A stretch of DNA of 64,000 nt from assembly GCA_025201375.1 (NCBI GenBank), contig JAIWZP010000039.1, forward strand, positions 235,138-299,137, given 5' to 3'. Below the pieces are notes generated by a model. The model had not been told where the DNA came from. It saw only the letters and a list, made by a program, of their open reading frames with translations, and did no database searches. This DNA is from Gongronella butleri. Taxonomy: Eukaryota; Mucoromycota; Mucoromycetes; Mucorales; Cunninghamellaceae. The position numbers and the translations under genes were made by a program. Each line of letters begins with the position of its first letter. The first letter of the stretch is position 1. Positions 2,773 to 64,000 of the stretch are shown here, in pieces.

Positions 2773-3540
2773 TGCCTATTAAAACCAAGAGCATGTTTTT
2801 CAGACTTTGGCGGCCCGCTGTGCTTCCAGAAATTTTTTTACAGTCTACTTGCCCACCATTGAAAAATGCGTTACGACATCAACTACGGCCCAGGGCGCAG
2901 GACGGGCTCGCCCGAATATTTTTGCACTCGAAAATGCCAAAAAGGTCAGATTTGGCTTATTTTGCATTCATCTCGCCATCTGCATGGTCGATCCCGCTCA
3001 AAAACAGCTGCATCGAACACAGCGCAAAATTTGCAACAAAAAAGCTTAAACCCCCAAAGCGCTACGAGCCTACGACCACTTTTGAAAAATTCAGGGGTCA
3101 CTCAGGGGTCACATATTTCAATCTCAGAAAATGCCAAATTTGGGAAAATTCGAACTCCGAGTGATCAATGCATCCCAAACAGGTAGTTCCGACAATTTGC
3201 TATCGGCAGACAAAATGGCAAATTGCCTCAACTTTAGAAAAAAGCCCAAAGAGTGGCGCATGAACAGCGATCGACTGAGAAAAAGTGCCTACTTTGGTCA
3301 AGATTTTTTTTTTGCAAAAATTTAAGGTTTGACACTTCCAAATATGAAGGTGCGTGGATTGCATGGAATTTTTATTTTTACTATACTGTATTTTTTTTTT
3401 ACTCGGTGTGTGGTGGTGGTGGTGGGCTGCTGCCTGCCCAAGCAAATGACTGGTGTAAAATTTTCAAACTTAAGCCAGCGCCGCGCTGCAAGAAGTCATC
3501 CCATTAGATGCTTTGCCCCCACCTGTTTATTATCAAATCT
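2773..3540 (+). repeat. Dispersed repeat R, copy 1
   Basis: This roughly 0.75 kb block matches 38285-39086 and 58985-59642 in the same orientation with frequent substitutions. Shared landmarks are the 'TTTTTCAGACTTTG' start, an 11-bp TCAGGGGTCAC tandem (two units here, 3091-3112), and the 'GATCGACTGAGA' segment near 3270. It codes for no recognisable protein. After about 3505 it continues into sequence that in copy 2 lies beyond the foldback element, so copy 1 serves as an empty-site reference. The family is not identified; it could be a non-autonomous element or a decayed fragment of a larger one. Confidence 0.75.
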
Positions 3541-38284: not shown

Positions 38285-39086
38285 TACCTTTTAAAAACCA
38301 AGTTCATGTTTTTCAGACTTTGCCGGCCTGCTGTGCTTCCAGAAATTTTTTACAGCCTGCTCGCTAATGAAAAATGCGTCACGCACAAACTACTGTACGG
38401 CCCAGTGTTCAAGAGATCAACACAAACCCTTCCGATTTTTTTGGACTCGAAAATGCTAAAAACTTCCTATCATACTGTATTTGTATTAAATTTTGCATTC
38501 ATCTTTCGTTCTGTCCATCTGCATGATCAAACACGCTCAAAAATAGCTGCATCGCATTCAACTCAAAATTTGCAACAAAAAAGCTTAAACTCCCAAAGCG
38601 CTACGACCACTTTTGAAAAATTCAGGGGTCAGCGGGTCACTCAGGGGTCACACATTTCAATCTCAGAAAATGACAAATTTGGGAAATTTCGAACTCCGAG
38701 TGATCAATGCATCCCAAACAGGTAACTCCGACCATTTGCTATTGGCTGACAAAGCGGCAAGTCGCCTCAAAGTAAGAAAAAAAGCTTAAAGAGTGACGCA
38801 TGAACGGCGATCGACTGAGAGAAATGCCTACTTTGGGCAAGATTTTTTTGCAAAAATTTTAGGTTTGACGCTTCCAAATTAAGGTGCGTAAATTGCATGG
38901 AATTTTTTTTCTTTCATATTTTTTTTTTGATATTTTTTTTGCACATTTTTGTGCGCTGAGTGGGCTGCAGCCTGGTGAAATGACCGATGATGCAAAAAGT
39001 TCAAAGCTTCAAAGTTCAAACGCAAGCTACTGTACCGGTATGATATGATATGATAGAACTGTAGCGTGCTGCAAGTCATCCTACTG
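38285..39086 (+). repeat. Dispersed repeat R, copy 2
   Basis: It matches copy 1 from its 'TTTTTCAGACTTTG' start to the 'CTGCAAG-GTCATCC' end. It is followed at once by the foldback element at 39089, and the R sequence resumes beyond it after 41714. Relative to copies 1 and 3 it carries an extra CTGTA at a TA at 38391. The 11-bp TCAGGGGTCAC tandem at about 38620-38652 is irregular here. Confidence 0.75.
39028..39055. repeat. TA-phased pentamer array
   Basis: TA occurs at 39028, 39033, 39039, 39044, 39049 and 39054. The spacers are CTG, a four-base CCGG, then TGA three times. Confidence 0.7.
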
Positions 39087-39208
39087 TACAGTGCCCTACC
39101 AAAAAAAAACTTCACCCCCTGGCTACTGTATTTTTTAGCAATGCTGAAGTCAAGTTAATCGCTTTAATCTCTTCTGTATTGATCAGAAATGACCCCAATA
39201 ATGACATA

Positions 39209-40838
39209 CCGTGGCTCTCAAAAGTGATCCAAATTTTGGAAATCTCACACAAATGTTATATGTTCTCATTCAATAATGATCGGATAAAAACAGTATTTAC
39301 ACTATTAGATAGCCCTATTTGAATTCTATAATGTGTTAAAATTTCAATTTGATATGTTCGATATTGATCGAGCTACAGCGCGTAATAAAATTGGAGTCAA
39401 TTGGATCACTTTTGCCGCCCACGTGCCTGAAATTGCTCCTGCCTGATCGGGGTTTTGGAGCAGGTTGTTTTTTCTTTTTTTTTTTTTTCTTTCTAGGCAC
39501 ACTTTCCTTGTCTTCTTTGTTGGAGTCACTTTCTACTCTTCATTACCGTCGAATCACTAGCTCATTACCGGCATTCCAGCAATGGGCAAAGTAACTACTG
39601 ATCAGAGAAACAGCATTCTCAAGCACGTTCAGGACGGGCTCTCTATCCGCCAAATTATGCGGAAGACTGGTGCTAGCTATGGTGCAGTCCAAAGACTACG
39701 CGTTTCCAAACCGTTGGTTGCAAAAGTGGGGACAATGGGACGTCCATCTCTTCTCAACGATCGCATGAAGAAGTATTGCGTGCGTGCCATCACCAAGTTT
39801 GGTCTGGAAAATGCGGTGGAAGTCAAGAACAAGCTACAGGAGGACCACGGTATTGTTGTCAGTACTCATACTGTTCGTAGAGCACTGCAGGAAGCAGGGC
39901 TAGTTGCCTTTGTGAAGCCAAAAAAACCTCTCATCAGTGAAGTCAACCGAATTCGACGCTTAAACTGGGCTCGCATGCATCAGCACTGGACCATCGAAGA
40001 CTGGAAACGTGTTATTTGGTCAGACGAAGTGAAAATCAACCGGTATGGCTCGGATGGAAAGAACTATGCCTGGAAGCGGCCCCAAGAAAACATTCAACCG
40101 CGTCATGTTCAACAAACCGTGAAGCATGGTGGTGGTAATGTAATGGTTTGGAGCTGCATCACCTGGGAGGGTGTTGGGTATATCACAAAGATAGACACTA
40201 CGATGGATAAGCACCTCTACTTGGACATCCTAAAGGAAGATTTGTGGGCGTCTATTCGTGAAAAGGAGTTCGATCCTGCGCGCGTCATATTTCAACAGGA
40301 TAATGACCCCAAGCATAAGTCACATTTAGTGCAAGACTGGTTGGCGGAACAGCCGTTTACAGTCATGGAGTGGCCCGCGCAGTCTCCTGATCTTAACCCA
40401 ATTGAAAACATGTGGGCCTTGCTCAAGCAAAAGCTTTTTCGATACGAGACTGTACCCAAAGGCATGAATGAACTTTGGGAGCGTGTAGTGCACGTCTGGT
40501 ACAACGACATTCCTAAAGAAATGGTTCGTAAGTACATTGAGTCCATGCCTGACAGGTGCAAAGCAGTTATTAAGGCGAACGGTCGTTGGACGAAATATTA
40601 AATAAAAAAATAAAAAAAAAGTAGCGACGCGTCAAAAGTGATCCAAATAACTCCGATTTTATTACGCGCTGTAGCTCAATCAATATTGAACATATCAAAT
40701 TGAAATTTTAACACATTATAGAATTCAAATAGGGCTATCTAATAGTATAAATAGCGTTTTTATCCGATCATTATTGAATGAGAACAAACAAAATTTGTGT
40801 GAGATTCCCAAAATTTGGATCACTTTTGAGAGCCACGG
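39209..40838 (+). mobile_element. Complete Tc1-like transposon (Tc1-A) with long TIRs
   Basis: The 1630-bp element begins CCGTGGCTCTC and ends with its complement, flanked by TA at 39207-39208 and 40839-40840. Terminal inverted repeats cover about 39209-39424 and 40633-40838. A 14-bp motif (CAAAAGTGATCCAA or near) occurs at the outer and inner end of each TIR, in opposite orientation, so four candidate transposase sites frame the element. The transposase frame is intact. It is inserted in the left arm of the foldback element. Confidence 0.92.
39582..40601 (+). CDS. Tc1/mariner transposase, intact (DD34E)
   Basis: An uninterrupted 339-residue frame. The N-terminal paired-like helix-turn-helix domains cover about residues 1-110 ('GLSIRQIMRKTGASYGAVQRL'). 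The catalytic core follows with D in 'VIWSDEVK', D in 'FQQDNDPKH' and E in 'SPDLNPIENMW'. I count 34 residues between the second D and E, the Tc1 spacing. The size is normal for Tc1-like transposases (about 340). It has no introns, frameshifts or stops, so the element could still be active or recently so. It would bind the TIRs and cut and paste at TA. Confidence 0.95.
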   Translation: MGKVTTDQRNSILKHVQDGLSIRQIMRKTGASYGAVQRLRVSKPLVAKVGTMGRPSLLNDRMKKYCVRAITKFGLENAVEVKNKLQEDHGIVVSTHTVRRALQEAGLVAFVKPKKPLISEVNRIRRLNWARMHQHWTIEDWKRVIWSDEVKINRYGSDGKNYAWKRPQENIQPRHVQQTVKHGGGNVMVWSCITWEGVGYITKIDTTMDKHLYLDILKEDLWASIREKEFDPARVIFQQDNDPKHKSHLVQDWLAEQPFTVMEWPAQSPDLNPIENMWALLKQKLFRYETVPKGMNELWERVVHVWYNDIPKEMVRKYIESMPDRCKAVIKANGRWTKY

Positions 40839-41766
40839 TAAAATTTTGTAGGAACAATGGTTTAAAAGTATAAAAACGAGTCTAGAATTATGAAGTAGCT
40901 ATATCAAGCGGATTTTGAAATAGACCAAAAAAGGGTACCTGACGCGTCACGCGACGCGACGCGTACTCACGCGTATACAATGGTCTGTGAAGATGAATTG
41001 ACATTATAAACACCATCTCAAAATTTTTCTGCAATGAATGTGATACAGTAGTATCCGATTGTATTCTGTAAACCAATTTCATGGTACATGAATCACATCA
41101 GAACTGTGACCGATATTGTAAATCCGCACTGTGACGCGTCTGGAATAGCGATTTTCATCTCTGGAACGTAATTTTAACCATTTTGTTGGATTGAAACCAC
41201 TGTGATTATTTAATTTGAAGAGCTAGAATAGCCTGTTATCGGTTGGTTGTGATTTTATTAAAAGCTTAGATCATGTTAGGGAAATCTCAGCTTATGACTC
41301 GTCTGACGCATCACAGTGCGGATTTACAAAATCGGTCACAGCTCATCTGATGTGATTCATGTACCATGAAATTGGTTTACAAAGTACAATCGGATACTAT
41401 CACATTCATTGCAGAAAAATTTGGAGATGGTGTTTATAATGTCAATTCATCCCCACAGACCATTGTATACGCGTGAGTACGCGTCGCGTCGCGTGACGCG
41501 TCAGGTACCCCTTTTTTAATCTATTTCAAAATCCGCTTGCTATAGCTACTTCATAATTTTAAAATCGTTTTTAGACCTTTAAACCATTGTTCCTACAAAG
41601 TTTTATGTCGTTGGAGTCATTTCTGATCAATACAGAAGAGATTAACGTGATTAACTTGACAGCCACTTTGCAAAAAATTGCCAGGGGGGTAGCTTTTTTT
41701 TGGTAGGGCACTGTACAGTGTTAGGTGCTTTGCTCCCTGTTTGTTTGTGACAAACTGCAATACGTA

Positions 41767-41987
41767 CAGTAGAATGCCGCTATATCGGCAGCCTCTACAG
41801 TACTGTACTGTACTGTACAATATATCGGTTTTGACCTTAGAACGGCGCAATTTCAGATTTCATTTGATGACTTCAAGCGCTATGATAGACACTGTTTCGT
41901 ATATCGGCATTTGGCTGGTGAACCCTACAACGGCAGGCAAAATAAATTTTTGATTTTGAAAATGCCGATATAGAGGCATTCTACCCG
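41767..41987. mobile_element. Small TA-flanked MITE with 23-bp TIRs
   Basis: The left end, CAGTAGAATGCC-CTATATCGGCA, is matched by its near-complement at 41961-41985. TA flanks both ends (41765-41766 and 41988-41989). At about 221 bp it has no coding capacity. The terminus looks like those of pogo/Tigger-type elements, which is an inference. It carries a perfect five-unit TA-phased array inside (41796-41822). Confidence 0.7.
41796..41822. repeat. TA-phased pentamer array inside the MITE
   Basis: TA at 41796, 41801, 41806, 41811, 41816 and 41821, perfectly 5 bp apart, with spacers CAG, CTG, CTG, CTG and CAA. Confidence 0.8.
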
Positions 41988-58984: not shown

Positions 58985-59617
58985 ACCTTTTAAAAATCAA
59001 AGAACGCGTTTTTCAGACTTTGCCGGCCAGCTGTGCTTCCAGAAATTTTTTACAGCCTGTTCGCCTGCCAATGAAACCTGTGCCACGGCATACTGTAATT
59101 AAACTACGACCCAGTGCTCAAGACAAACCCACCCGATTTTTTTTGAACTCGAAAATGCCAAAAACTTCAGATTTTTACAAGTTTGCATCCATCTCGCCGT
59201 CTGCATAGTTGTCTCAGCTCAAAAATAGCCGCATCGTGTTCAGCGCAAAATTTGCAACAAAAAAGCTTAAAGCCCCAAAGCGCTACGACCACTTTTGAAA
59301 AATTCAGGGGTCACTCAGGGGTCACTCAGGGGTCACACATTTCAGTCTCAGAAAATGCCTAATTTGCATTTTTTCGAACTCCGAGTGATCAATGCATCCC
59401 AAACAGGTAACTCCGACAATTTGCTACTGGTTGACAAAATGGCAAATCGCCCAAACAAAATAAAGAAAAAAGCAAGCCCAAAGAGTGACGCATGAACGGC
59501 GATCGACTGAGAAAATTGGCTATCATACTGTACTTTGATCAAGATTTTTTTTGCAAAAATTTAAGGTTTGAAACTACTTCCAAATTAAGGTGCGTGAATT
59601 GCATGGAATTTTTTTTG
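58985..59617 (+). repeat. Dispersed repeat R, copy 3
   Basis: It matches copies 1 and 2 in the same orientation. It has three units of the 11-bp TCAGGGGTCAC tandem (59305-59336). At 59521-59532 a single TA of copies 1 and 2 is replaced by TA-TCA-TA-CTG-TA. The copy runs directly into a TA-phased array and a transposon at 59645. Confidence 0.75.
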
Positions 59618-59644
59618 TACTGTACTGTACAGTACTGTACTGTA
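59618..59644. repeat. TA-phased pentamer array ending in a transposon
   Basis: TA at 59618, 59623, 59628, 59633, 59638 and 59643, perfectly spaced. Spacers are CTG, CTG, CAG, CTG and CTG. The last TA is the target site of the Tc1-like element that begins CAGTGACC. Confidence 0.85.
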
Positions 59645-60994
59645 CAGTGACCGGACAAAAAAAGGTCCGCCCTGACGTTTTTTGGGCACCGCAGCCATTT
59701 TGACCAATTTACAGTATAAAACTGACTCCCAGGCGCCGCTCGCCGGGCCTTTTCTTTTTTTTTCTGCGAAAACATGGTCCTCTCAACCACCCAGAAGGCA
59801 CAACTCGTCGCACTTCGCAACAACGGTTGTACGGTTGCTGATCTGGCTTGTCAATTCAGCGTGTCTGAACGATCTGTCAGAAGAGTAGTGAAGAAATTTG
59901 CAGATCGCGGCTACTATGGCCGCAAAGAGGGCTCAGGGCGCCAAAAAGCACTTTCAGACGCAGACCTACGACGCTTGCGACGCCTTGTAGTCAATGAACG
60001 ACGTGCGACACTTGACCAGATTCGCGACATGTCTGAAATGCATGTGTCGAGTCGCACCATTCTTCGACGTCGTCTGCATGAAATGGGCATAAAAAACTCG
60101 CGTATTTGCAAGAGGAAACCCTTCGTTTCAACTGCACAGGCAGCAAAACGACTCGCTTTTGCTAGGAAACACGCAGCGTGGACGGTGGACAAGTGGAAAA
60201 AGGTGCTATTTACCGATGAGTCCTCGTTCGAAATCGGCAAGAACTCTCGCCGTGTCCGTGCCTGGCGCACAGCCGCCGAAGCAGACCACCCGGACACTCT
60301 TGTCCCCACTTTCAAGAGCGGGCGTACGTCGCAAATGGTTTGGGGTGGTATCCAGCACGGAAAGAAGAAGGAGCTCGCACTTTTCGAGAAGCATGGGCCC
60401 AATGACCGCAGCACAAGGTCGACTGCGGAAGATTATGTGCGCGTCGTGTATGAGGGACCTTTGAAGAGGTTTTTTGGGCGCAAAAGGACCATCATACTCA
60501 TGGAAGATGGCGCCATGATTCACAGAGCAAATGTGTCAAAGCAATGGATTGCAAAAAAAAAGATTAAGAAGATGGAATGGCGGCCCGCAAGCTCACCGGA
60601 CCTCAATCCAATCGAAAATCTTTGGAAAAAGATGAAGGCGCACGTTCAAGATCGATTTCACGAGGGAATGGAGTTGGAGGAGTTTCGTGAGGTTCTAAAG
60701 GAGGTGTGGAACGACTTTGAGCCTAGCGACTGGAACAAGCTCATTGAGTCGATGCCCAGAAGGATAAAGGCAGTGATCAAGAGCAAAGGCAAGCCCACCC
60801 CACCCGCTGGTGACCTTCCCCTGTCGCCCGACCTCTGCTCTGTTTTTTGTATGAATTATTAAGTATGTATTAATAAAGAATCTTCATGTGAAATTTGAGA
60901 GATCCAATTGCAATACTCGATGAGAAACGCGTAAAAAAGAAATGACGCGTAAAAAATTAAAGTTAGGGCGGACCTTTTTTTTGTCCGGTCACTG
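59645..60994 (+). mobile_element. Complete Tc1-like transposon (Tc1-B) with short TIRs
   Basis: The element begins CAGTGACCGGAC and ends GTCCGGTCACTG, with TIRs of about 29-30 bp that include an A/T run and GGTCCGCCCT. TA flanks the left end (59643-59644). On the right the terminus is followed by ACTCACTG and then TA at 61003-61004, so the true right end may be 8 bases further or the flank has changed. The transposase frame is intact. Total about 1350 bp. Confidence 0.88.
59774..60862 (+). CDS. Tc1/mariner transposase, intact (second family)
   Basis: A 362-residue frame without introns or stops. The N-terminal HTH region ('GCTVADLACQFSVSERSVRRVVKKF') is followed by a second HTH and a basic linker. 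The catalytic triad is D in 'LFTDESSF', D in 'LMEDGAMIH' and E in 'SPDLNPIENLW'. I count 35 residues between the second D and E, one more than usual, because of an extra residue in 'WRPASSPD'. It differs throughout from the Tc1-A transposase, so two separate families are present. It would cut and paste its own element at TA. Confidence 0.95.
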   Translation: MVLSTTQKAQLVALRNNGCTVADLACQFSVSERSVRRVVKKFADRGYYGRKEGSGRQKALSDADLRRLRRLVVNERRATLDQIRDMSEMHVSSRTILRRRLHEMGIKNSRICKRKPFVSTAQAAKRLAFARKHAAWTVDKWKKVLFTDESSFEIGKNSRRVRAWRTAAEADHPDTLVPTFKSGRTSQMVWGGIQHGKKKELALFEKHGPNDRSTRSTAEDYVRVVYEGPLKRFFGRKRTIILMEDGAMIHRANVSKQWIAKKKIKKMEWRPASSPDLNPIENLWKKMKAHVQDRFHEGMELEEFREVLKEVWNDFEPSDWNKLIESMPRRIKAVIKSKGKPTPPAGDLPLSPDLCSVFCMNY

Positions 60995-62048
60995 ACTCAC
61001 TGTACAGTTCTAGGTATGTTGTACTGTAGGTATAGCTTATGTACCGGTATTTGCTGCTTGTTGCAGAGTAGCGTGATCTCCTCATTACAGTATTTAGGTA
61101 AAAATCACAATGGACACAACATCATCCAAATGTGAAAGAGAATGTGGCTGCGATGATTACAGTACTCTACAGTAAGTTACTGTAGACGCGCTGGTCGTGT
61201 ATGGACTTGTACAGTATGTACTGTATGTGTTTCACAAGTTGCTTGTCTGATACAGTAAAAAGAAAAAAAAAGAAAAGAAGAAGCAAACGCGATGATGCAT
61301 GCAAATCGCGACGTGCATTCTCAGTGCCGCATCCCTGGATTCAAATCCAGATGGCCGGCGGGCACATACCGTATCATACAGTAATACCTAGTCGTCCGGC
61401 TACGATAATAATCAAGCCCCGCTCACACAAAGGCTGCTATCGTCGCCAGGTCTTTACGTTTTATCATACAACAGTAATCGCGATTTTACCAGAAGATACG
61501 TACGTACCTAAAATCATACTGTACATGAAAAAAGGAGGATATGATTTATGCAAGTAATCCAGAGATGTTGGTTCCGTAGCATGAATAATGCACATGGGCG
61601 CGTAAAGACGCGTATGATACGGTATGGCCAAGTGGGGCATTGTGTGATCACAAGCAAGTAACTGAGATTTTTCTCATTTTATTCTTTCTCAGGCTTGCAC
61701 GTGCCCAGATCCTGGTCAATGCAATCTCTGATCATACAGTACATAGCAAATGAGGCATCTTAGCAAGGGTGCGTACAAGAGAGCAAAAAATGAGGGAAAA
61801 GATATCCTTTCATATATGATATGGTAAAATCGCGATTATCATATGTACAGTGAAGGTATGTGCCAAAAGTTTAAGCTCAGTGACAAATGTGTCACCGGCC
61901 TGTCTGTCACTGAATGTCACCGATGGCAAATACCTTTTTTGGCTGCATGTTGCTGCGGGGATCTAAAACGATGATATAAAAAAGGGGGTAAAAAGGGGAT
62001 CAATTCCACCCTTTGCCTTTTTTTTGTTTGCAAAAAATCCTCTTTATT
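60995..62048. other. AT-rich intergenic part of repeat island 3
   Basis: No gene is supported. TACTGTA, TACAGTA, TATGATA and TACGGTA heptamers are scattered throughout. From about 61880 the sequence is likely the 5' flank of the Crypton gene. Confidence 0.5.
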
Positions 62049-64000
62049 ATGCCCCCTACACGAAATCGATCTGCATCACGTGTGATTGCTAGCAGCAGCA
62101 CATCTGCTGCTCATGATAGAAACACGGAGCGTGGCAAAGAAGTTGTGCGCCAGACAATGAATACTTTCACCCAAGAAGTGAGACCAGCAAACACGCATGC
62201 TAGCTATAAAACAAAACAAGAGAAATTCAGTGTAAGCCATGAATAGCTGCGCAGCGAGGACAATTGCAGTAAAAGAGCGTATTTGAGGCCTAATTGAATG
62301 TTTTGTATAGAAATTCTGTGCCGAAAGACAATATGTTGATGGTCCAGCAGTCACGGAGGAAAAGATCTTGGTGTATCTGGAGGATGTCGTGTCTCGCCGT
62401 GGCCACCAACACAAAAAACGCGAAGATGGCATGCCTTGCGATTTATCCTTCGAATCGTATTCAATGGAGGTGAAGGCGCTGATTGATTTGCATTCCACGC
62501 AAGTCATTGACAGAATCGCTGAACCTGGGAAGATTCGAGGCACGGCATTGCAAGCCTGGTTGAAGAACAAGCGCATTGCGGAGCACAAACGCAAGCGAGA
62601 AGAGTATGTGGATCGTGGTGCGCATTCTGCCCAAGACGGCTACTCTGCTGAACAGCTTGTGCAAGTCTCGATGTTCTTGTTTGGCCAAAAAAAAGAGATC
62701 TCTCTCAGGGATCGTGCTTGGTTTCTGCTCCAGCATATGATGCTGTTGCGAAGCGAAAGCTCGCGCGACATTGATTTGGCGGATCTTTGCAAGGTGGTCT
62801 TCCCTGATGAAGGATTCAGCGAATGTCCTGCGTTGGTGGTTCGTCTCGACCATGGAAAAACTAACAAGTTCGGCAAGGTTGAGTTCGGTGGCGCCATCCG
62901 ACACAAGGACCACCGTGTGTGTGCGTTTGGTGCCCTTGCACAGTACTTTTTTTATCGATGGCACATCTCAGGCGAAGAATTTCCAAATTTTGAGAAGAAC
63001 GCGACTTGGTTCGATGTCAAGGCATTCAAGAATGGCCACCCGGAAAATGCAATGACCTATCGAACGCAGCTTAGGGCTGTGAATCGCGTGTTTGAGGCCT
63101 TGAACATTCGCATTTCCAAGAAAACACATTCTGGCCGTGGAAGTGGTGCCCAATTGGCGGAAATCGATGGTGCGACGGAAGAAGACCTGCGCCGCCACGG
63201 TCGTTGGGAAACTGGAAGCATGGAAAAGTGCTACCTGCTTGCTCTCCCTCGCAAATCCATTCGCATCATCAATGGTTTTTCCTCGGAAAAGGGATTTTAC
63301 TGGCTGCCCCGAGCAAATTTGGACCCCCCCGAGTCGCTGCAAAAGAAAATCTTTCCGCAAGTTGAAGAATGGCTCAACAAGGTCACGCACAAACTCGATG
63401 GAACAGAATATTCCATTTGCGCGGAAGCGTTTCTCAACCTTCTGGCGACAATGCGCCGCGTGTTTCTGCAAGATTCCGTGCTGCACCGCGTTGACCACCC
63501 TGACCATCCCTTGTTTTGGCACGATGTTTTCAGCGACCCTGAATTCATCACATTTGAGCAACAATTGCTTTCTGCCATCAACACAGCGGAAGAACCTCAA
63601 GACCTTCTTGTTCGCCGAGCCTTGCCCGTGGTCAGCGAGCAATTGCAGAACTTGAGCAACAAAATCGACAGCAACCAAGCGATTATTAGGAGCATGATAT
63701 CTCAGCAGCAAGCGACAACGAGTGCTGATTCTGCTCAGATCGCCAGTGTTCAGCAAGATGTCGGTGTTGTCAAAAATCACCTGGAACACCTGAAATTAGC
63801 CTGCGCGTACTTTGTGAATCCTCACAGCGCAACAATGGTTCCCAATGCAGGTGCTCCAAGCAACAACAATGGCCAAGACCATGCAGCCACAACATCTACC
63901 TATCGCCTTGATAGAAATGTGCAAAGCTTGGCCGATCTGGTGAAGGAATGGTTTGATGGACTTCCGCCAAGCAAGCCATCCGTGGTTAGTTTGAATGCCG
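62049..64000 (+). mobile_element. Crypton-type tyrosine recombinase gene (3' truncated by window)
   Basis: Exon 1 (62049-62231) joins in frame by a GT-AG intron to exon 2 from 62311, which stays open to the window end, giving at least 624 residues. A helical N-terminal domain precedes the recombinase core. The core has R in 'MMLLRSESSRDIDLADL', H-x-x-R in 'THSGRGSGAQLAE' and the presumed nucleophile Tyr in 'GRWETGSMEKCYLLALP'. The last residues 'SLADLVKEWFDGLPPSKPSV' look like the start of a GCR1_C DNA-binding domain, typical for fungal Cryptons. Databases often label such proteins as Ndc10/centromere-binding. The ends of the element cannot be seen here. It could also be a domesticated gene. 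Confidence 0.8.

Follow-up and report, generated by a model that had tools for sequence, protein, structure and literature searches.

Excision scars of Tc1/mariner-type elements as a probable source of TA-phased pentanucleotide arrays in the genome of Gongronella butleri

The locus and its transposable elements

The window analysed here, i.e., the whole stretch of 64,000 nucleotides, is part of contig C44 of a genome comprising 33.0 Mb in 110 contigs, and its features are compiled in Table 1. It holds 199 TA-5-TA pairs as compared to 81-119 pairs for all other spacings from 2 to 15, and in 85 of these 199 pairs the spacer is CAG or CTG, the expectation being 1.9. A sequence-only reading of the window had claimed that TA recurs every five bases with CTG or CAG in between to the left of a Tc1-like element beginning with CAG, and that the last TA of this array is the target site of the element; both statements are confirmed, the excess of TA-5-TA pairs being far above chance. 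With respect to their distribution, two of the window's 125 TA-NNN-TA units, hereafter called scars, are found in the seven 4-kb bins between 8 and 36 kb, and the bins at 0-8, 36-44 and 56-64 kb contain 14 to 28 scars each. Several open frames with domains lie between 8 and 36 kb. The copper-fist domain, which is fungal, is also matched within the window (E = 1.2e-11).

Table 1. Arrays, scars and transposable elements located in the window
Feature	Position	Strand	Sequence or tips	Basis
TA-phased array of five 5-bp units (CTG, CTG, CAG, CTG, CTG)	59618-59644		TACTGTACTGTACAGTACTGTACTGTA	sequence
Left target-site TA of element A, the last TA of the array	59643-59644			sequence
Target-site TA at the right end of element A; CAG follows	61003-61004
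Element A, Tc1-like	59645-61002	+	CAGTGACCGG
Transposase of element A, open 362-codon frame with DDE_3 and HTH_Tnp_Tc3_2	59774-60862	+
Two-unit scar, a 10-bp insertion relative to other copies of repeat R	59521-59532		TATCATACTGTA
Single scar within element A, missing in A copies L029 and L031	59710-59716		TACAGTA
Scar in copy 1 of repeat R	3384-3390		TACTGTA
Family C element including both target-site TAs	39087-41715		CAGTGCCCTACC
Family B element including both target-site TAs, open frame at 39561-40601	39207-40840	+	CCGTGGCTCTC
Scar in one arm of an inverted repeat, the other arm having a plain TA	41044-41050		TACAGTA
Further TA-phased array (CAG, CTG, CTG, CTG, CAA)	41796-41822

Element A has terminal inverted repeats consisting of CAGTGACCGGACAAAAAAA and its complement, its right end exceeding the left one by 8 bp (an extra ACTCACTG). 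Its transposase matches DDE_3 (E = 2.2e-15) and HTH_Tnp_Tc3_2 (E = 9.5e-11), both above the Pfam cut-offs, and the distance from the second D to the E is 35 residues, with the residues picked by motif. Family A, which has the tip CAG, comprises 12 near-full-length copies, and TA flanks both ends in the window copy as well as in the 11 further ones. Element A thus combines the TA target-site duplication, the terminal inverted repeats and the DDE transposase with a Tc-type helix-turn-helix domain by which Tc1/mariner elements are recognised. At locus L047 (contig C28), a copy of family A adjoins the end of another element of the same type, and one TA is common to both.

Three further families were delimited. 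Family B (tip CCG) is represented by 11 copies with 99-100% identity, and its window copy sits at a scar-free TA, nested inside the family C element. Family C (tip CAG, with CAGTA variants) yields at least 40 matches to a 120-base end piece; in the window, CTG precedes its target-site duplications and CAG follows them. Some of the family C ends, including L123, L127, L129 and L133, have tips reading CAG-TA-CCC or CAG-TA-CCG-TA-CC, and it may be speculated that such tips are made of scar units and, equally speculatively, that a family C element might acquire a scar when the cut lands at the next TA outward. Family D (L054, L055 and L138) has the tip CCG. In addition, a pogo-like locus (L139) with the tip CAG, but no CNG at its left, has a stop codon inside the transposase match.

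Copy 1 of repeat R carries one scar and copy 2 has none near 38895-38935, as had been stated. However, the order derived from this, leading from copy 2 via copy 1 to copy 3 with its five units and element, is weak, as single positions cannot be confidently aligned in this T-rich tract. Repeat R offers sites that can be compared better, one of which, the two-unit scar at 59521-59532, falls within the interval 59518-59650 to which the sequence-only reading refers. A continuation of repeat R to the right of element A was not found when the R tail was compared to positions 60991-64000 by blastn, which returned only short minus-strand pieces.

Five-base gains at TA in paralogous copies

Forty of the 997 candidate copies of repeat R were scored, and the sample, made up of 39 copies outside the window and the three window copies, comprises 42. 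Relative to the consensus there are 40 insertions of 5 bp, as compared to 22 of 4 bp and 10 of 6 bp. Of the 5-bp insertions 17 lie in TA register and the remaining 23 out of it, and all 17 carry one of the six spacers CAG/CTG, TCA/TGA and CCG/CGG; likewise, three of the 13 insertions of 10 bp are in TA register, and all three consist of two units of these six spacers. At one position of R, the copies have a plain TA, CGG, CTG, TCA, TCA followed by CTG, or a long array. Within the window, two paralogous comparisons reveal a clean gain at TA, namely 41044-41050 compared to the other arm and 59710-59716 compared to two other copies of element A. A TA is hence found replaced by TA-CAG-TA or TA-CTG-TA, i.e., by a footprint of the Sleeping Beauty type, and from the matching tips of resident elements (see below) we infer that excision is the probable source of these gains. 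In the raw gap lengths of all pairwise repeat alignments there is no peak at five (217, 93 and 54 gaps of 4, 5 and 6 bp, respectively), so that the signal is visible only with better alignments.

Two other lengths peak among the insertions in repeat R (L056-L094 plus the three copies of the window): 78 insertions measure 3 bp, 40 of them being exact tandem duplications, and 16 measure 8 bp, 12 of them being near-tandem duplications. They resemble what other DNA transposons would leave behind if these make target duplications of 3 and 8 bp, the latter presumably hAT-like. Moreover, TACCGGTA is present in L093 and L077 (at R positions 236 and 565), a 6-bp gain of the form TA-CCGG-TA, which might represent another type of scar, with a four-base spacer; CCGG is among the commonest four-base TA spacers, with six occurrences in the sample.

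Spacer classes and the tips of resident elements

Spacer enrichment was determined in the window and 200 kb of contig C1, with expectations from a second-order Markov model. Among the 32 spacer classes, CAG/CTG ranks highest (209 vs 7.3 expected, 28.8-fold), followed by TCA/TGA (86 vs 11.7, 7.4-fold) and CCG/CGG (22 vs 8.1, 2.7-fold). All three are of the form X-N-X', which would be expected because two 3-nt overhangs of identical tips pair in their outer bases and mismatch in the central one; for CAG overhangs, by our own derivation, the mismatch would be A against A. The eight symmetric X-N-X' classes jointly outrank the other 24 (p = 0.002), although two members of the eight show no enrichment in the same sample (GAC/GTC and GCC/GGC). 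Together with the insertions of one or two units at TA between paralogous copies, the form of the spacers supports the claim that the 5-bp units are excision scars.

In the entire 33 Mb, TACWGTA occurs 16,213 times and TATSATA 9,529 times, chance copies included, as compared to 6,355 and 1,031 occurrences of the respective reversed patterns, which as controls are other words. Of all 7-mers occurring 40 times or more in the sample, TACTGTA and TACAGTA show the strongest enrichment, and TACTGTACAGTA is palindromic. Both facts would also fit a functional motif under selection, e.g., a palindrome bound by a protein, which the elements just target. However, exact 5-bp insertions at TA between repeat copies, with differing spacers at one place, and the near-lack of scars between 8 and 36 kb (2 of 125), where several open frames bear domains, speak against such a motif, and we regard this explanation as extremely improbable.

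The expectation that spacers correspond to the tips of resident elements holds for two of the three enriched classes, CAG and CCG, but not for TCA/TGA. An element with TGA/TCA tips was found neither by scanning the window, 200 kb of C1 and the element loci for TA-flanked inverted repeats nor by genome-wide searches with the Pfam models DDE_3, DDE_1 and HTH_Tnp_Tc3_2, part of whose loci were inspected. The TCA/TGA class is therefore without a known source. The loci L049-L053, L137 and L140-L142 yielded no convincing inverted repeat flanked by TA. A candidate TGA/TCA element of 87 bp in C1 was discarded, as it has no clear relatives in the DNA examined.

Order of units within arrays

In 346,369 bases, partly selected around elements, neighbouring CWG units agree in 59 cases and differ in 56, and the corresponding numbers are 31 and 28 at lag 2 and 16 and 14 at lag 3. 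In the window and C1 alone, 17 neighbouring units are the same and 20 different, and genome-wide 733 of 1613 neighbouring CWG pairs are the same, slightly under half (p = 0.0003). The orientation of the units is thus random, in support of what mismatch repair predicts and of what had been claimed for the central A or T. The small genome-wide excess of mixed pairs is the opposite of slippage.

These counts bear directly on the possibility that the arrays are ordinary pentanucleotide microsatellites grown by replication slippage or unequal crossing-over. One run, in which a single unit of one orientation is followed by eight of the other, does look slipped. Slippage copies units unchanged, yet identical neighbours are hardly commoner than differing ones, be it at lags 1 to 3 or genome-wide, and the unchanged copying of neighbours that marks slippage microsatellites is not seen. 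Also, the first units occur at TAs without any earlier repeat. Slippage is therefore disfavoured by the unit order, and as a general explanation of the arrays we consider it very improbable.

Elements residing within arrays

The surroundings of the family A copies were counted by eye from their printed flanks. The three bases before the target-site duplication are CNG in all 12 copies (CWG in 11 and CGG in one; in one copy the left CNG belongs to an adjacent element end), and the three bases after it are CWG in every copy. At the left, 10 of the 12 copies have a full TACNG unit, and at the right 11 have a full CWGTA, with CWG on both sides being found at only 53 of the 8106 TAs in the sample. 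Both flanks of family A copies hence lie inside the repeat, as in microsatellite-targeting elements, whereas none of the 11 family B copies lies between CNG and CWG (CNG at the left in 1/11, at the right in 0/11; in one copy an additional base changes the left end). The difference between A and B is significant (p = 1.5e-6, Fisher's exact test, run with 12/12 vs 0/10). Among 10 family C copies from the matches listed and the window copy, CNG is found at the left in nine of 11 and at the right in all 10 with a resolved right end, and in family D CNG flanks are present at all three loci with resolved ends. The location of elements inside arrays thus applies to families A, C and D but not to B.

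The simplest reading of these 12 out of 12 is that families A, C and D seek arrays rather than build them. Alternatively, copies might land at a plain TA and build their own nest of scars by leaving and re-entering repeatedly in the vicinity, which would equally give every A copy CNG on both flanks, as observed. However, CWG pairs (1613) far outnumber the 12 near-full-length A copies, and at some flanks other spacer classes or altered units adjoin A. Neither observation is decisive, and we hold self-built nests to be unlikely.

Growth of arrays

The sequence-only reading had further inferred that arrays grow by rounds of insertion into a scar and excision, each adding 5 bp. For CWG scars, the TA at the right end begins another scar in 51 of 209 cases (0.244), as compared to 208 of 841 nearby TAs (0.247), and for CCG/CGG scars in 2 of 22 (0.091), as compared to 17 of 88 (0.193). 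TCA/TGA scars are followed by a further scar in 25 of 86 cases (0.291) vs 64 of 345 nearby TAs (0.186), all rates being compared as raw proportions. A general preference for scarred TAs was therefore rejected, being absent for CWG and CCG/CGG scars and weakly present for TCA/TGA. As CWG scars attract no extra hits in general, scar-rich regions account for the first step.

A feedback becomes apparent from two units onwards. There are 172, 15, 12, 6 and 3 CWG-only runs with at least 1, 2, 3, 4 and 5 units, respectively, so that the step from one to two units is rare (15/172) and the step from two to three usual (12/15). Under a passive model that lets all TAs, those created by scars included, be hit with the same likelihood within windows of 100 or 200 bp, about 29 runs would be expected to reach two units and 8.1 (100 bp) or 6.8 (200 bp) to reach three, and the 12 observed runs of at least three units were attained in 3.75% and 1.25% of 400 simulations, respectively. 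By comparing the run counts with this model it follows that growth is slow from one to two units and fast afterwards. The pattern is weaker for all six spacers together, with 42 and 22 runs of at least two and three units as compared to about 51 and 16-17 expected.

Genome-wide, 1613 of 16,213 CWG units are succeeded by another (0.10), and there are 205 alternating triples (last TA optional) vs 880 alternating pairs; if the order is random, the rate from two to three units in either orientation can be estimated at 0.4-0.5, in rough agreement with the jump at two. Uneven local rates may explain part of this jump, which rests on 15 runs, and since slippage likewise requires two units to start, the jump alone does not discriminate between slippage and repeated visits. 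With two units there is for the first time a TA with CNG on both sides, i.e., the address of families A, C and D, and a jump at this point is what the entry of A-like elements between two scars would produce.

Proposed origin of the arrays

In the scenario that we propose, an element of the Tc1/mariner type would enter at a TA, which is thereby duplicated, and its later exit would leave three tip bases between the two TAs as a TA-NNN-TA scar. The two overhangs of 3 nt would mismatch in the centre and be repaired there either way, probably giving rise to CAG or CTG, to CCG or CGG and, by the same logic, to TGA or TCA. A repeat visit at the TA of an existing scar would then add 5 bp per round, so that an array results. 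First and second scars would stem from hits at TAs in scar-rich regions, with no preference for CWG scars, and once CNG units flank a TA at its left and right it would become a preferred entry site of families A, C and D, so that runs of two or more units lengthen faster.

At the sequence level, this scenario is supported by the 5-bp gains at TA, the spacer classes, the random order of units, the residence of A, C and D in arrays and the jump at two units. It is opposed by the failure to find a TGA/TCA element in the scans described, the merely local hit rate at CWG scars, the 23 five-base insertions out of TA register, the raw gap lengths without a peak at five, the two X-N-X' classes lacking enrichment and the slight genome-wide departure of the orientation from 50%. 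Excision scars and arrays from repeated visits are well supported, and to the whole account, including the preference of A, C and D for arrays, we assign a probability of roughly 0.75. More tentatively, and with somewhat less than even odds in our estimation, a group of transposons might home to its own exit scars, with CNG-TA-CWG as the target and each visit adding one unit and one target, such that scars nucleate by chance and arrays reinforce themselves.

Known systems and significance

The canonical excision footprint of Sleeping Beauty is described as TAC(A/T)GTA (PMC3432063, PMC4378557) and its overhangs as 3 nt long (PMC7827188), and the system found here has in common with it the TA target, the 3-nt overhang and the CAG or CTG between two TAs. 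However, as far as the Sleeping Beauty footprints are covered in the cited parts of these sources, they are single ones, each resulting from one excision event in mice or cell culture, whereas the genome studied here, a natural one, has chains, at least two spacer classes and sites by the thousands. In intron 4 of the Triticeae beta-amylase gene, a Stowaway element is described as having re-inserted at an old footprint (PMC1925063), which likewise implies that elements came and went repeatedly at a single TA, one of them adjoining an earlier footprint. In the part of that report considered here, this case differs in concerning one locus with irregular footprints and without 5-bp arrays. The microsatellite-targeting MITEs of pineapple, located in (TA)n (PMC8449440), are similar in having a short tandem repeat on both flanks, but are Mutator-like, and in the abstract the repeat is not described as the elements' own scars. 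Targeting of TA by a fungal and a bacterial relative is also on record, as judged from excerpts of the sources (PMC2836289, PMC2170065). Among the open-licence literature matches listed, there was no description of scar chains as a source of microsatellites or of a transposon group residing in them, which is weak evidence of absence.

Chains of scars would constitute a route to microsatellites without slippage, for which the X-N-X' classes, the random orientation and the jump at two units provide a test at the level of the sequence. Past excision would also become countable, as 16,213 TACWGTA and 9,529 TATSATA, chance included, can be set against at least 74 stretches matching DDE_3. If families A, C and D do seek arrays, these elements would make their own safe harbour, and should the homing reading be true, they would build their own landing sites, with a class of mixed-orientation microsatellites as the by-product.
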